This document shows, in pieces, positions 1,116 to 12,974 of a stretch of 36,051 nucleotides of DNA. The notes beneath the pieces are model-generated. The model had not been told where the DNA came from, did not search any database, and worked only from the letters and a program-made list of their open reading frames with translations. The DNA is from Hyphomicrobiales bacterium (GTDB lineage Bacteria > Pseudomonadota > Alphaproteobacteria > Rhizobiales > Beijerinckiaceae). The translations under genes and the position numbers were made by a program. Location of the stretch: NCBI GenBank assembly GCA_025358745.1, contig JANYIH010000287.1:1-36051 (forward strand), given 5' to 3'. Within the stretch, counting starts at the first letter, position 1. The number at the start of each line of letters is the position of its first letter.

Positions 1116-1526
1116 TTGATCATGCGCCGCATCGCCCTTATTTTGACCTGCCTTTTCCTCGTCTCCGGCGCTTCCGCGCAACAGGAAAAGCCGCCGACCC
1201 CCGTCTGCGATTCGGCGCGCATCGGTGCGCGCGAGCTTGCCGATTGCCTGCGCACCGCCTCGGATAAGTCCGAGCAGGCGCTGCAAAGCACGTTCGCGGC
1301 CGCGCTGAAATCGATCGAATTGAAGTCAAAAATAATGGCGACGCGCAAAACGCGCTGGAAGCGGTTCCTCAGCGATTCGCAGACGCAATGGGCGGCCTGG
1401 CGCGACGAGGAATGCCAGGATCTGGCGCCGCTTGAGGCGGCCGGCGCCGGCGGCGACCCGCGCCTGGCCTGCTTGATCGACCACAATGCGCACCGCACGG
1501 CGGATTTGAAGGCGCGTTATCCTTAA
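1116..1526 (+). CDS. Secreted DUF1311/LprI-like lysozyme-inhibitor-type protein
   Basis: N-terminal signal peptide MRRIALILTCLFLVSGASAQ; Cys-containing helical core with WKRFLSDSQTQWAAWRDEEC typical of DUF1311. Confidence 0.7.
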   Translation: MIMRRIALILTCLFLVSGASAQQEKPPTPVCDSARIGARELADCLRTASDKSEQALQSTFAAALKSIELKSKIMATRKTRWKRFLSDSQTQWAAWRDEECQDLAPLEAAGAGGDPRLACLIDHNAHRTADLKARYP

Positions 1527-2143
1527 GCCCCGCTCGTCTCCATCGCGATCCGCATCAGGTCCATCGAGGACCGTGCGCCGAGCTTCTGCTTCAGCGCGGT
1601 GCAATTGTTGGCGACTGTCTTGTAGGACACATGCAGCGCGTCGGCGATGTCGCCCATCGATTTGCCCGCCGCCAGCATCCTGAGGATTTCCAGTTCGCGC
1701 GAACTCAAGCTGGCGACCTTGTTGGCGTTGACGTTGGTGCGCAGGAACGCGATCTGGCGCGCCATGTCGGGATGCAGATAGACCCCGCCGCGCGCCACTT
1801 GCCGGACCGCGTCGGCGAACAGCGAGGGGTCGTCGTTCTTGGCGATGTATCCCCTGGCGCCGGCCTCGATGGCGCGGGCGGCGAACACGGGATCGTCGTT
1901 CATCGTAAAGATGATGATCTTGGCCTGCTCGTCGCGCAGGCGGATGCGGCGGCACACTTCCAGCCCCGACAGGCCCGGCAGGTTGAGATCGACCACCGCG
2001 ACGTCGGGCTTCCACGAAAAATACAGCGCCTGCCCCTGCTCGGCGTCCGCCGCATCGCGAACCTCGATTTCCGCGTCAGCGGCGAGCAACGCCTTGCAGC
2101 CGGAAATGACGATAGGATGATCGTCGACGATCAATACCCGCAC
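1523..2143 (-). CDS. LuxR/NarL-family response regulator
   Basis: Receiver VRVLIVDDHPIV..DVAVVDLNLPG..K; C-terminal LuxR HTH LSSRELEILRMLAAGKSMGDIADALHVSYKTVANN; GTG start at 2143 preceded by GGAGG. Confidence 0.93.
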   Translation of the reverse strand: MRVLIVDDHPIVISGCKALLAADAEIEVRDAADAEQGQALYFSWKPDVAVVDLNLPGLSGLEVCRRIRLRDEQAKIIIFTMNDDPVFAARAIEAGARGYIAKNDDPSLFADAVRQVARGGVYLHPDMARQIAFLRTNVNANKVASLSSRELEILRMLAAGKSMGDIADALHVSYKTVANNCTALKQKLGARSSMDLMRIAMETSGA

Positions 2144-2190
2144 GCGAACGTCCTCCCATGACGCCGTGATGACGCGCCGGGCCGGGGAAA

Positions 2191-3168
2191 TCAACCCAGC
2201 GCGAAACCCGACGTGCGCGTGACCGCGCCGTCCTTGGCCACGAACAGTCCTTCCGCGCGGAAGTGGGCGAGCAGCGCCGGCGCCGCCGCGCGGCCGATCA
2301 AAAACGCCGCCGTCGACAGCGCGTCCGCCAGCAGTCCGCTTTCCGCCTGCACGGTCACGCCGGCGAAATCGCCGGGCGAGACGCCCAGTCGGGGATCGAC
2401 GATGTGGTTGCGCGCGTAATCGGGCGACCAGAAATATTGATAGTCGCCCGAGGTGGCGAGAAAGCCGGTCACCGGCGTCCGCGCCACGCTCTCCTGACGC
2501 TTGCGCGGATGGCGCACGCCAGCGAGCCAGGGCCGCCCGTCCGGCCGAGACCCGCGCGCGCCGAGCACGTCGGTGTCGAACAGGGCTTGCCGCACGCCGA
2601 GCCGTCCCAGCGCCGCCGCGACGCGATCCGCGGCGAGCCCGCGCGCCAGCGAATTGAGTGTGACGGCCATATGCGGGCGGGCGAAGCTGACCTGGCTCTC
2701 GTCGAACCGCAGCGCGGTCTGGTCGACTTTGGCCTGCGCGGCCGTCAATTCCCCGCCATCGAGCCAGCGGCCGCGTTTTGCGGCGGCGTCCATCGCCAGC
2801 CACAGCGGCTGGATCGTCACATCGAACGCGCCCGCGCTCGCTTCGTGCATCAGCGCCGCCGTCCGCAGCATCCGCAATAGGCTCGCGCTCGGCCTATCGA
2901 GCCGTCCGTCGCGATTGAGCTTGAACACCTCGCTGTCCTCCCGCGTCAGGCTCGACAGCCGATCGGCGTCGCGGATTTCGGCGAGGGCGGCGGTGAAGGC
3001 GGGCTCGGCGTCCCGTTCGTCCTCGGCGATCACTGACACCGAGACCGTCGCGCCAAACGCGACGCCCAGGCGGCGGTAGAGCCTCCCCCCGGTGGCATCC
3101 GAACCGATCGCCGCCGTCAACCCCGCTGCGGCCAGTCCCAGCGCGTCGCGGCGAGTGGGGAGCTTCAT
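2191..3168 (-). CDS. apbE: FAD:protein FMN transferase (ApbE/NosX family)
   Basis: Tat-like N-terminus MKLPTRRDALGLAAAGL; ApbE pattern (SLTREDSEVFKLN, GAFDVTIQPLW, NSLARGLAADRVAAAL, SGDYQYF, HIVDPRLG); ATG overlaps the upstream stop (ATGA). Confidence 0.9.
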   Translation of the reverse strand: MKLPTRRDALGLAAAGLTAAIGSDATGGRLYRRLGVAFGATVSVSVIAEDERDAEPAFTAALAEIRDADRLSSLTREDSEVFKLNRDGRLDRPSASLLRMLRTAALMHEASAGAFDVTIQPLWLAMDAAAKRGRWLDGGELTAAQAKVDQTALRFDESQVSFARPHMAVTLNSLARGLAADRVAAALGRLGVRQALFDTDVLGARGSRPDGRPWLAGVRHPRKRQESVARTPVTGFLATSGDYQYFWSPDYARNHIVDPRLGVSPGDFAGVTVQAESGLLADALSTAAFLIGRAAAPALLAHFRAEGLFVAKDGAVTRTSGFALG

Positions 3169-5252
3169 TGCGCCGCCCTCAGCCGCGCGGCGCGCTTGGC
3201 CGCCAGCACCAGCGGCACGCATTGGCGCGCGTCATTGTTGATGACGACGCAATCCATGCACTGGAAGCACTCGGAATAGACGATCGCGCCGCTCTTCTGA
3301 ATCGCGTTGTAGCGGCATTTCGCCTTGCAGAGCTGGCACGGATCGCCGCATTCGACCCGGCGCTTCAGCCAGTCCCAGCGCCGCAAAAGCCCGACCAGCG
3401 CGAAGGCGGCGCCAAGAGGGCACAGATAGCGGCAGAAGAACTTGAACGCGAACATGCCGCCGACGACGAGGCCCAAAGCATAGAGCACGAACGGCAGGCT
3501 GCGGGCGAATTCCAGCGTGATCGCGGTCTTGAACGGCTCGATCTCGGCCAAGGTCTCGGCCGGCGCGTTGGGAATGGCGGCCGCGAGCAGAACGCCCGCC
3601 AGCGCGACATATTTGAGGCTTTTCAGCCTCGCGTCCCAACGCTCGGGGATGCGGATCGGCTTGATGCCGAGCCAGCGGCCGAAATCGGCGGCAAGCTCCT
3701 GCATCGCGCCGAACGGGCACAGCCAGCCGCAGAACGTCCCCCGCCCCCACACGACCAGCGTGGCGAGCGTGAACCCCCACAGAACCAGGCTCGGCGGGTC
3801 GTAGAGCAGGAACGCCAGCGATCCCTGCCCACGCGCGGCGCGCGTCAGCCCGATCAGGCTGACGATGGACAATTGCGCCTGCGCCCAGAAGCCGATGAAC
3901 AACAGCGTGAAGACGAGAAACGCCCGCCGCGCCCAGGCGAAGCGGGCCGCCCGCGCCGTCAGCCGGCCTTGCGCCGCGAGCGCGATGGTCAATCCGATCA
4001 GTGAGAGCGCGATGATCGCGGTGTCGAGCGCCCTGTCGCGCCAGACGCCGAGCGCGCCCTTGGCCTCCTCGGGCGGCGGCAGGGTCAAAAGGTCGGCCGG
4101 CGTGGAATAGGGAAAGCCGAAATCGTGGCTGATTCGCGCCGGCAGGATCTGCCCCTTCTCGCGCGTCGCCAACAGACCCAGCGTCGCGGTCGCGGAAGGG
4201 TTCCAGCCCGTTTGCGGCTTGATGACGAACACCGCGAGATCGCCCTGCGGCGCCTGGGCGACCGGCCTGCGCCAGGCGAAATCGCGGATTTCCACCGGCG
4301 CGCCGGATTGGGCAAAAGTCAGCCGCGTCGGCGCCGCGCCTTGCACATAGTCCTCGCCCATGAAGGAATAGCGCCCGGTCGAGACCACCAAGATCGCGTG
4401 GCGGCCGTCGAGATCGGAGATAAGCCGTTCGAACGCCTTGTCGCCGATGAGATTGCGCCCGACCATCGGCGTATCGATTTCGCCGACCCAAAGCTCGATG
4501 AAGGGGTCTTGCGGGTGGGCGCGCACGTCAGCGTCGAGCCCCTCGCCATCCGTGCCCTTGAACGGAGCCTCCGACTCCGCGTTCGAGACGCGGTAGTGTT
4601 TGATGTAACCGCCCGCGACCAGCCCCGCCCAATCGAGCTTGTGGAACACATCCCCGCGCACCCGCGCCGAGCGGGAGGGATCGCGCCCCTCGGCGAAGCC
4701 TAGCTTCTCGCGCGCCACCGTCAATCCCGAGGCGAGCAGCGTCTCGTTGAGAATGCGCACGCTCGCCGTCGCCTTGGCGACGCCGTCGACCACGACCACC
4801 GCGCCGTCGCTCGTCGGGCTGCCGGCCGGCGGCCCGACCTTGATCGTCTGCTTGAGCGATTTTCCCTTGTATTGCTTGACGAAATCGAACAGCGGCTCCG
4901 GCCCGAGCCCGTCCACGAACACCGGCTCGTGGAAATGCACGACCTTCACTTCAAGAAATGTCCCGTCCGGCGCCAACGCCACCAGAAGGTCGATCGGCGT
5001 GCCGGAAAAGCCGGGGATCGGCGCCAGATCGACGGATTCATAGACATAGGCGACAAGCTGGTTCTCGGTCGCGTTCTGCTTGAAGATCGGCCAGACGGGG
5101 AGGCGATCGTCCTTCTCGCCGAGAATATAAGGCGCGGGGAAGGCGCGTTCGAGGTCGGCGCGGGTGAGAAAGCCGGCGAGCGCGGGCAGGCAGGCGAAAG
5201 CCCAGGCGCAAAGCCCGAGGCAAATCATAAACGCCGACCGCAACCCCCGCAT
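3165..5252 (-). CDS. NosR/NirI-like membrane flavoprotein with FMN-binding domain, two CxxxCP motifs and C-terminal 4Fe-4S cysteines
   Basis: Signal peptide; periplasmic FMN_bind-like domain with KATASVRILN; TM helices; FCGWLCPFGA and FCRYLCPLGA; CGDPCQLCKAKC and CFQCMDC. GGAGG upstream of the ATG at 5252. Confidence 0.88.
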   Translation of the reverse strand: MRGLRSAFMICLGLCAWAFACLPALAGFLTRADLERAFPAPYILGEKDDRLPVWPIFKQNATENQLVAYVYESVDLAPIPGFSGTPIDLLVALAPDGTFLEVKVVHFHEPVFVDGLGPEPLFDFVKQYKGKSLKQTIKVGPPAGSPTSDGAVVVVDGVAKATASVRILNETLLASGLTVAREKLGFAEGRDPSRSARVRGDVFHKLDWAGLVAGGYIKHYRVSNAESEAPFKGTDGEGLDADVRAHPQDPFIELWVGEIDTPMVGRNLIGDKAFERLISDLDGRHAILVVSTGRYSFMGEDYVQGAAPTRLTFAQSGAPVEIRDFAWRRPVAQAPQGDLAVFVIKPQTGWNPSATATLGLLATREKGQILPARISHDFGFPYSTPADLLTLPPPEEAKGALGVWRDRALDTAIIALSLIGLTIALAAQGRLTARAARFAWARRAFLVFTLLFIGFWAQAQLSIVSLIGLTRAARGQGSLAFLLYDPPSLVLWGFTLATLVVWGRGTFCGWLCPFGAMQELAADFGRWLGIKPIRIPERWDARLKSLKYVALAGVLLAAAIPNAPAETLAEIEPFKTAITLEFARSLPFVLYALGLVVGGMFAFKFFCRYLCPLGAAFALVGLLRRWDWLKRRVECGDPCQLCKAKCRYNAIQKSGAIVYSECFQCMDCVVINNDARQCVPLVLAAKRAARLRAAQ

Positions 5253-5434: not shown

Positions 5435-6361
5435 ATGAATTTCAGACACCGCATTTTCGCTACCGTCGCCCTCGGCATCTTGTATTGCGGCGCGGCGACC
5501 GCCGCTCCCGAGGGAACCGCCACGACGGCAGGCGAAAGCTATAAGCTGCCGATTTCCCCGCCGCGGGATCAGGGCGATTCCGATTTGTGCTGGGTGTTCG
5601 CTACGCTCAACATGCTCGAGTCCAACTATCTGCAAAAGCATCCCGGCTCGCACATCGAGCTTTCGCGCGGGGCCGTGCAGCGAGCCTCGATAGCCGACCG
5701 CTTTGCGCGATTGATCACGAACAATTCCGCGCATCTCGAAGACGGCGGCGTCGCGGTTGACGCGTTGGCGTTGATCCGCGCCAACGGCTTGTTCGCGGCG
5801 CAGGACTTTCACGATTACGTCGATTCCGATCCAATATTCACGACCGCGGCCGCGCGCTTGTCTAGGATTGCCCTCGCGAGCGAAAAGGCGAAGGCGCTGG
5901 ACCGCGCTTTGGCGGCAGCGCTGGGCGTGCTCCCCGCCGTCACTCACCTCGGCGGCAAGGATTTGACCCCGAGCGAACTCGCCGACGCGGTGCTCGGCGA
6001 CGAGACCTGGACCGAATACGACGTGATCGGCGCGGGCGTCGCCCATGTCGGCCCGTCCGACGATCCCGACGCGCGGCCCGAGACGCGCGTGCATTACGTG
6101 CCGCTCGCCACCGCGATCGATCTTATCCACCGCTCGCTTGCGGGCGGGGAGGCGGTGGTGTGGGGCTCGAAGGACAATCATGCGCTGGAAATCTTCGGCG
6201 CCGATTACGATTCTTCCGGCCAGCCGCTGTCTTATTGGGTCAAGGATTCGTTCGCCCCATACGTCTATCGCGCGCCCGCCGAGGCGATCCACAATGTCCT
6301 GACCGACGTGACCGTCGCCACGCCGTTCGCGCGCGATGAGCGCACGGCGGCCAAGAAATAA
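5435..6361 (+). CDS. Secreted papain-like (clan CA, C1-type) cysteine peptidase homologue
   Basis: Signal peptide MNFRHRIFATVALGILYCGAATAA; PPRDQGDSDLCWVFATLNMLES (active-site-like Cys52), DNHALEIFGADY (His249), YWVKDSF (Asp271 at the usual Asn position). Confidence 0.75.
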   Translation: MNFRHRIFATVALGILYCGAATAAPEGTATTAGESYKLPISPPRDQGDSDLCWVFATLNMLESNYLQKHPGSHIELSRGAVQRASIADRFARLITNNSAHLEDGGVAVDALALIRANGLFAAQDFHDYVDSDPIFTTAAARLSRIALASEKAKALDRALAAALGVLPAVTHLGGKDLTPSELADAVLGDETWTEYDVIGAGVAHVGPSDDPDARPETRVHYVPLATAIDLIHRSLAGGEAVVWGSKDNHALEIFGADYDSSGQPLSYWVKDSFAPYVYRAPAEAIHNVLTDVTVATPFARDERTAAKK

Positions 6362-12372: not shown

Positions 12373-12974
12373 GCCCGGGCGACCGCCAGTTTGAGGCCGA
12401 AGCCTAAAAACACGCAGCCGGTAAGACGATCGAGCGCCCTCACCACGCGCGGCGCGCGCAACCATCGGCCAAACGGGACAGTCAGCGCGATCAGCGCGGA
12501 GAACCAGAGAAGCGTCAGCGCCGCATGGATGGCCGCCAGCAGCAGCGAGAACGCAGCGACATTCGCGCCCATGGGAATGAACTGCGGCAGGAAGGTCGCG
12601 TAGAACACGCCGACCTTGGGGTTCAGCACATTGGTCAGGAATCCGCGCCGCAGCGCCGCGCCGTCGTCGCCGCCCTCGAAGACCAGCCCCGCGCGCGGCC
12701 TTAACAGAAGGCGCAGGCCGAGAAAGCAGAGATAAGCCGCGCCCGCCCATTTCAGCGCGTGATAGGCGCCGGTCGAGGCCGCCAGCAGCGCATTGAGCCC
12801 GACCGCCGCGCCCGCGCCCCAGACGAACAGCCCGCCGCACACACCCAAAGCCGCCGCCGCGCCCGCACGCGGACCCTGCGCGGCGCTCGCGCGCAACACC
12901 AGCGCCGTGTCGACGCCCGGCGTGATCGTCAGCAGGCCCGCGGCGAGCGCGAAGGCGGCCAGCGACAGCCACAT
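12369..12974 (-). CDS. LysE/RhtB-family amino-acid exporter
   Basis: TPGVDTALVLRASAAQGPRAGAAAALGVCGGLFVWG; multiple TM helices; FLTNVLNPKVGVFYATFLPQFI. Confidence 0.93.
   Translation of the reverse strand: MWLSLAAFALAAGLLTITPGVDTALVLRASAAQGPRAGAAAALGVCGGLFVWGAGAAVGLNALLAASTGAYHALKWAGAAYLCFLGLRLLLRPRAGLVFEGGDDGAALRRGFLTNVLNPKVGVFYATFLPQFIPMGANVAAFSLLLAAIHAALTLLWFSALIALTVPFGRWLRAPRVVRALDRLTGCVFLGFGLKLAVARA

Follow-up and report, generated by a model that had tools for sequence, protein, structure and literature searches.

The window analysed here is a stretch of 36,051 nucleotides which constitutes one entire contig (JANYIH010000287.1) of an incomplete Hyphomicrobiales metagenome-assembled genome (MAG; 3.94 Mb, 355 contigs, 86% complete). 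Because the window is a whole contig, linkage beyond it is not directly readable. Three intact genes on its minus strand code for a NosR-like membrane flavoprotein, the flavin adenine dinucleotide (FAD):protein flavin mononucleotide (FMN) transferase ApbE and a LuxR-type response regulator (Table 1). This operon probably serves alcohol oxidation, not denitrification, because its NosR-like protein belongs to a separate branch of the family which sits beside genes for rare-earth-type alcohol-oxidising enzymes. The genes are arranged as originally predicted: nosR-like and apbE overlap by ATGA, and the regulator, which had been placed about 50 nt further on, starts with GTG at 2143, 47 nt past the apbE stop and preceded by GGGAGG. 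This spacing suggests that the three genes are co-transcribed. A promoter and terminator scan found no promoter-like site; the scan was low-powered and is not decisive on operon structure.

Table 1. Coordinates of the three operon genes and of predicted sites in the NosR-like protein, as positions in the window.
Feature	Position	Strand	Basis or remark
NosR/NirI-family NapH-like membrane iron-sulfur (Fe-S) flavoprotein, 695 aa, third clade	3165..5252	minus	open reading frame, families, tree, structure model
apbE, FAD:protein FMN transferase, 325 aa	2191..3168	minus	PF02424 (E 4e-48), phmmer
LuxR/NarL-type response regulator, 206 aa	1523..2143	minus	Response_reg and GerE; receiver Asp52 intact
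Predicted periplasmic FMN-binding domain, residues 82-168	4749..5009	minus	weak PF04205 match and RnfG-like fold
Thr162 codon, predicted FMN attachment site in DGVAKATAS	4767..4769	minus	aligns with SGAT of NosR
First CxxxCP motif CGWLCP, residues 508-513	3714..3731	minus	
Second CxxxCP motif CRYLCP, residues 607-612	3417..3434	minus	
First C-terminal 4Fe-4S motif CGDPCQLCKAKC, residues 635-646	3315..3350	minus	cysteines invariant, 56 relatives
Second C-terminal 4Fe-4S motif CFQCMDC...C, residues 662-678	3219..3269	minus	cysteines invariant, 56 relatives

The NosR-like protein carries the hallmark set of NosR, i.e. an FMN domain, CxxxCP motifs and two C-terminal 4Fe-4S motifs. It matched Fer4_5 (PF12801) at E 6.8e-16 and scored 532 bits against the NCBIfam NosR model (NF046105), under the curated cut-off of 1000 bits. 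The FMN_bind family (PF04205) matched only marginally (E 0.068, residues 82-168); 47 of the 56 clade members matched it at E<=1, the best at 7e-6. A scan of the own genome with this model gave no match. Because the model also misses the NosR-like protein of the window, the empty scan is not evidence of absence. An AlphaFold2 model from nine sequences was poor (predicted local distance difference test score, pLDDT, 59.7), and a model from 56 relatives was used instead (pLDDT 87.9). One of its domains gave a match (E 5e-4, probability 1.0) to the FMN-carrying Rnf subunit RnfG.

The original prediction had placed the flavinylation site in the segment KATASV, and the alignment agreed: Thr162 aligns with the Thr of NosR, and Ser or Thr is retained at the equivalent position in all 56 relatives. 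The surroundings differ. The DIVSGATVT of NosR corresponds to DGVxKATxS in the window clade, with [AST]KAT in place of SGAT, and all 56 relatives have Lys, Met or Arg instead of the Gly of the canonical motif. Thr162 is the putative site of ApbE-dependent covalent FMN attachment. The ApbE of the window matched solved ApbE structures by phmmer (best 5mgy) and has a twin-arginine-like N-terminus (TRRDALG). It is the only ApbE found in the own assembly, and apbE was likewise single in 6 of 11 other carriers examined. A motif variant, ATVS, was seen in NosR-like proteins of five Marinobacter and Halomonas loci (L109, L115, L118, L123, L134), which have no apbE or PQQ genes (see below) within the fetched flanks; functional divergence of these proteins is possible.

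NosR-family proteins were collected from 120 related genomes, and 80 named relatives were added from GTDB genomes. In the 120 genomes the genes were located beside nosZ, beside nirS or, as a third set, beside neither. In a tree of 75 proteins the nosZ-linked (11), nirS-linked (7) and window-type (57) proteins formed three separate, strongly supported groups. The named relatives had been picked by similarity to the window clade, and the tree is thus silent on other origins. The window protein lies outside both the nosZ-linked and the nirS-linked clade. Three genomes (G015, G042, G114) carry a window-type protein plus a nosZ-linked or nirS-linked one at another locus. A NirI identity was ruled out by clade and neighbourhood, as nirS is absent. 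That the module was "repurposed", as originally predicted, is not supported, because the tree, with its three separate clades, does not tell which of them descended from which.

No nosZ, nosD, nosL, nirS or related kinase was found in the window, in line with the predicted lack of nos structural genes. A profile search did not find nosZ in the 86% complete own assembly and was positive in 17 of 25 other genomes. A protein search of this assembly did not find it either, with positives in two control genomes of four searched. Within this assembly, then, we rejected a nosZ hidden elsewhere in the genome. Together with the position in the tree this upheld the view of a NosR-type module without nos genes.

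What, then, accompanies such genes? Genes on related loci were called with a codon-usage caller and cross-checked by tblastn. Neighbours were counted within 10 kb of the NosR-like gene in the 80 named relatives, and 18 nosZ- or nirS-linked genes served as control. Window-type genes were accompanied by a pyrroloquinoline quinone (PQQ)-dependent dehydrogenase of the methanol/ethanol family (TIGR03075; PQQ alcohol dehydrogenase, PQQ-ADH), cytochrome c550 PedF (TIGR04494), the ATP-binding cassette (ABC) system proteins PQQ_ABC_bind (TIGR03863) and PQQ_ABC_repeats (TIGR03866), a NosP-like FIST protein and a NahK-like kinase. At least one gene of this ped/exa-type PQQ system (PQQ-ADH, PedF or PQQ-ABC) was present in 55/80 (ADH 40/80, PedF 34/80, ABC system 38/80), and apbE in 54/80. 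Neither nosZ nor nirS was located within 10 kb of any of the 80 genes, and PQQ genes were absent within 10 kb of all 18 controls. PedF was found in 24 of the 40 ADH loci, and in 19 of the 27 where more than 5 kb was present on both sides. The only oxidoreductase common to the neighbourhoods is a dehydrogenase; no reductase is common to them.

The association extended to whole genomes. A PQQ-ADH was counted as close from about 64% identity upwards; one was present in 9/9 carriers and 3/112 non-carriers among the relatives' genomes (p 2e-11), and in a class-wide sample from which the own genome was left out in 3/3 carriers and 5/381 non-carriers (p 6e-6), p-values which ignore shared ancestry. 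The original prediction had called the electron acceptor unknown. The redox partner need no longer be regarded in this way, since neighbourhoods and co-occurrence point to a lanthanide-type PQQ-ADH system. "Acceptor" is perhaps the wrong term, as the alcohol dehydrogenase may be the side that donates the electrons.

Several loci deserve mention in their own right. Many relatives have, beside PQQ-ADH, a gene for a 506-aa aldehyde dehydrogenase and, next in line, one for a DUF779 protein (L060 4753-6719 and loci like it). In a beta-proteobacterial subgroup, mostly Rhodocyclales (L094, L096, L099-L102, L106, L121), the NosR-like gene has no nearby apbE or PedF; these loci carry a kinase-regulator pair and some a polyketide-cyclase-like secreted protein (172 aa). 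In G042 and in Rhodoblastus acidophilus (L032, L068) NosP-like and NahK-like genes adjoin the NosR-like gene, with no PQQ-ADH within 10 kb. In the window itself, the other scanned genes (aminotransferase, LprI-type, papain-like, FtsK) have no visible redox link. The papain-like gene (5435-6361, plus strand) is divergent from the operon, and its exported product weakly matches the papain family (C1) around QGDSDLCW; it has no relative in any neighbourhood locus.

PQQ-ADH is absent from the window, on another contig in the own genome and on the same contig as the NosR-like gene in a sibling species. In the own genome, contig C246 carries NosP-like and NahK-like genes, a regulator, a PQQ-ADH (WDYD), a PedJ-like binding protein and PedF, and contig C41 a PedA1A2BC-like importer (binding protein, beta-propeller, ATPase, permease). 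The PQQ-ADH on C246 is 81% identical to that of the sibling. There, a 26-kb contig (G008:C363) starts with pqqE, pqqC, PedA2/A1-like genes, pqqB, ExbD/ExbB-like genes and a TonB receptor, and continues with apbE, nosR-like, NosP-NahK, regulator, PQQ-ADH, binding protein and PedF. Adjoining PedF on C246 (9608-12354; L141/L159) are genes for a 2Fe-2S protein and for a large one similar to a molybdopterin aldehyde oxidoreductase, with a small cytochrome c nearby (12527-12907). Possibly these constitute a periplasmic aldehyde-oxidation step.

An Asp-x-Asp motif, in which a second Asp is located two residues past the catalytic Asp, is the lanthanide signature of XoxF and PedH enzymes. As WDFD or WDYD it was present in 40 of 42 aligned clade-linked ADHs; the two without it are second copies in Marinobacter loci which also hold a WDYD copy. 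The partner ADHs are thus predicted to be of the lanthanide type. The motif is not specific as a sign, because many PQQ-ADHs of this size are of the lanthanide type anyway. By type, the PQQ_ABC genes are counterparts of PedA1A2BC of Pseudomonas putida, which is required for growth at low La3+ (PMC6839425), and of the LutABEF importer of M. extorquens (PMC7391723).

The response regulator led to a candidate kinase. Its closest relative (57-58%, G042:C13, from a family member) adjoins a MoxY-type sensor kinase and a TonB receptor. C246 carries a TonB receptor matching that of G042 (56%) and, divergent from it, a kinase which is 40% identical to the G042 kinase and has no regulator beside it. LapD_MoxY_N, HAMP and HisKA_3 were detected in all three kinases tested, some matches being just below the Pfam cut-off. 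In the lanthanide switch of P. putida, PedS2 is a membrane kinase related to MxaY with HAMP signalling to a LuxR-type regulator (PMC6115532). Judged by these similarities, the MoxY/PedS2-type kinase on C246 is probably the partner of the window regulator. No related kinase lies in the window, as had been noted, yet a candidate is located beside the alcohol system of the same genome. Identity of the window regulator with the ADH-side regulator was rejected: the regulator adjacent to the ADH of the own genome is only 24% identical and belongs to a separate clade.

A system of this kind was already predicted by Méheust et al. (2021), who reported NapH-like flavinylated proteins with the ethanol oxidase exaA in 172 genomes and proposed that electrons pass from the alcohol oxidase via the flavoprotein into the respiratory chain, as they do via cytochrome c in other microbes (PMC8238504). 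The window operon is a further member of this predicted kind, sharing the PF12801 membrane Fe-S protein, the N-terminal FMN domain and the adjacent apbE and, judged by its relatives, the link to PQQ-ADH. Those systems were presented as a cytochrome c substitute of several origins, whereas here most ADH loci contain PedF and the sampled members form one clade. PedF in most ADH loci and in the own genome speaks against a simple cytochrome replacement; the link itself agrees. The word lanthanide does not occur in Méheust et al. (2021). In the open-licence literature we found no paper naming a link of NosR to PQQ, XoxF or quinoproteins, or of ApbE to lanthanides; Méheust et al. use the terms NapH-like and exaA. 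New here are the lanthanide link, the coexistence with cytochrome c550, the replacement of Gly by Lys in the flavinylation motif and the probable kinase partner.

With NosR of Pseudomonas stutzeri and Paracoccus the window protein shares the domain order, two CxxxCP and two C-terminal 4Fe-4S motifs and the partner ApbE/NosX (HHalign probability 100 over 646 columns). It differs by an identity of 33%, half the curated score, the lack of nos genes, a separate clade and [AST]KAT for SGAT. NirI has the same architecture with an adjacent ApbE (NirX), but window-type loci lack nirS and the clade is separate. RdhC/PceC of organohalide respiration is a membrane protein with a periplasmic FMN domain and two CxxxCP motifs (PMC5928378); it is without the C-terminal 4Fe-4S motifs of the window protein. 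The ped/exa/lut systems of P. putida and M. extorquens have in common with the present one the PQQ-ADH, PedF, the PedA1A2BC/LutABEF importer, the TonB receptor, NosP-NahK and LuxR-type regulators (PMC6839425, PMC12997753, PMC7391723), but neither a NosR-like protein nor FMN is mentioned in PMC12997753 and PMC7391723.

The observed gene content, clade, neighbourhoods and co-occurrence suggest a partner protein for the NosR-like flavoprotein within this system; electron flow from the ADH side to the membrane pool is suggested more weakly. With a probability of roughly 0.6 we consider the operon to encode a flavin/Fe-S electron-transfer unit, its maturase and a regulator of lanthanide-type periplasmic PQQ alcohol oxidation. 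ApbE would attach FMN to Thr162 in the periplasmic domain of the NosR-like protein. Membrane helices, CxxxCP motifs and two 4Fe-4S clusters would link the flavin to a membrane or cytoplasmic electron pool. Most likely this would be a second outlet, by which electrons leave PQQ-ADH or cytochrome c550 for the quinone pool alongside the usual route through the cytochrome. Together with the C246 kinase, its probable partner, the response regulator would tie the operon to the alcohol/lanthanide regulon.

Several points weigh against this proposal. The motif of the clade lacks the Gly of the canonical SGAT. In the own genome the operon and the ADH genes are on separate contigs. The potential of PQQ is about +90 mV. 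One covalent FMN protein of the ApbE type was measured at -184 mV (PMC10339131), and electron uptake from PQQ by such a low-potential flavin would be disfavoured. Energetics are not decisive, because flavoprotein potentials range so widely (-495 to +153 mV; PMC5928378). The frequency of PedF in ADH loci leaves no obvious need for a second outlet; it also speaks for the main rival, the same system operating in reverse. Here, quinol would deliver electrons through the protein to a periplasmic component of the alcohol system for maturation, re-reduction or protection of PQQ-ADH or the cytochrome. The characterised members NosR and RdhC/PceC are placed on the reductive side (PMC5928378), NosR, NirI and RdhC are thought to be quinol-fed, and the motif set at hand is that of NosR. 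But the neighbourhoods share no electron-requiring reductase or substrate, their sole common oxidoreductase being a dehydrogenase, and we regard reverse flow as possible yet doubtful.

Another difficulty is that PQQ genes are missing from the 10-kb surroundings in 25/80 named relatives, some on short contigs, others with full-length flanks (Marinobacter). This would fit a clade which serves several unrelated periplasmic enzymes, PQQ-ADH merely being the most frequent. In the roughly 500 genomes sampled, no carrier was without a close PQQ-ADH, which makes such a mixture unlikely. Could the NosR-like protein act on the alcohol/lanthanide regulon as a redox sensor or regulator instead of being a main electron carrier? 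The earliest descriptions of NosR and RdhC were as regulators (PMC5928378), the operon contains a response regulator and some relatives adjoin NosP/NahK. The full conserved redox motif set and the dedicated ApbE argue otherwise, most relatives have no regulator in the operon, and a sensor role appears quite improbable. An accessory of cryptic N2O (nitrous oxide) or nitrite reduction, with nosZ or nirS in the missing part of the 86% complete assembly, is highly improbable: the protein belongs to neither the nosZ nor the nirS clade, nosZ is also missing from the sibling species and from several other carriers, and G015, G042 and G114 keep a classical NosR or NirI at a separate locus.

Beyond the second outlet proposed for this organism, we tentatively envisage that alpha-, beta- and gammaproteobacteria have a dedicated flavin-based electron branch which serves lanthanide-dependent alcohol oxidation beside cytochrome c550. 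Its proteins might represent a third class within the NosR/NirI family by function, and their altered motif, [AST]KATxS, would be recognised by a dedicated ApbE. In this organism, the branch is perhaps under the control of a kinase which senses lanthanides and has its gene on another contig. With NosR in wide use as a marker of N2O reduction, members of the window clade would be miscounted. Orphan NosR/ApbE pairs gain a concrete, testable partner. Current models of how alcohols are oxidised with lanthanides assign the acceptor role mainly to cytochrome c550, and the flavoprotein may be a component missing from them.

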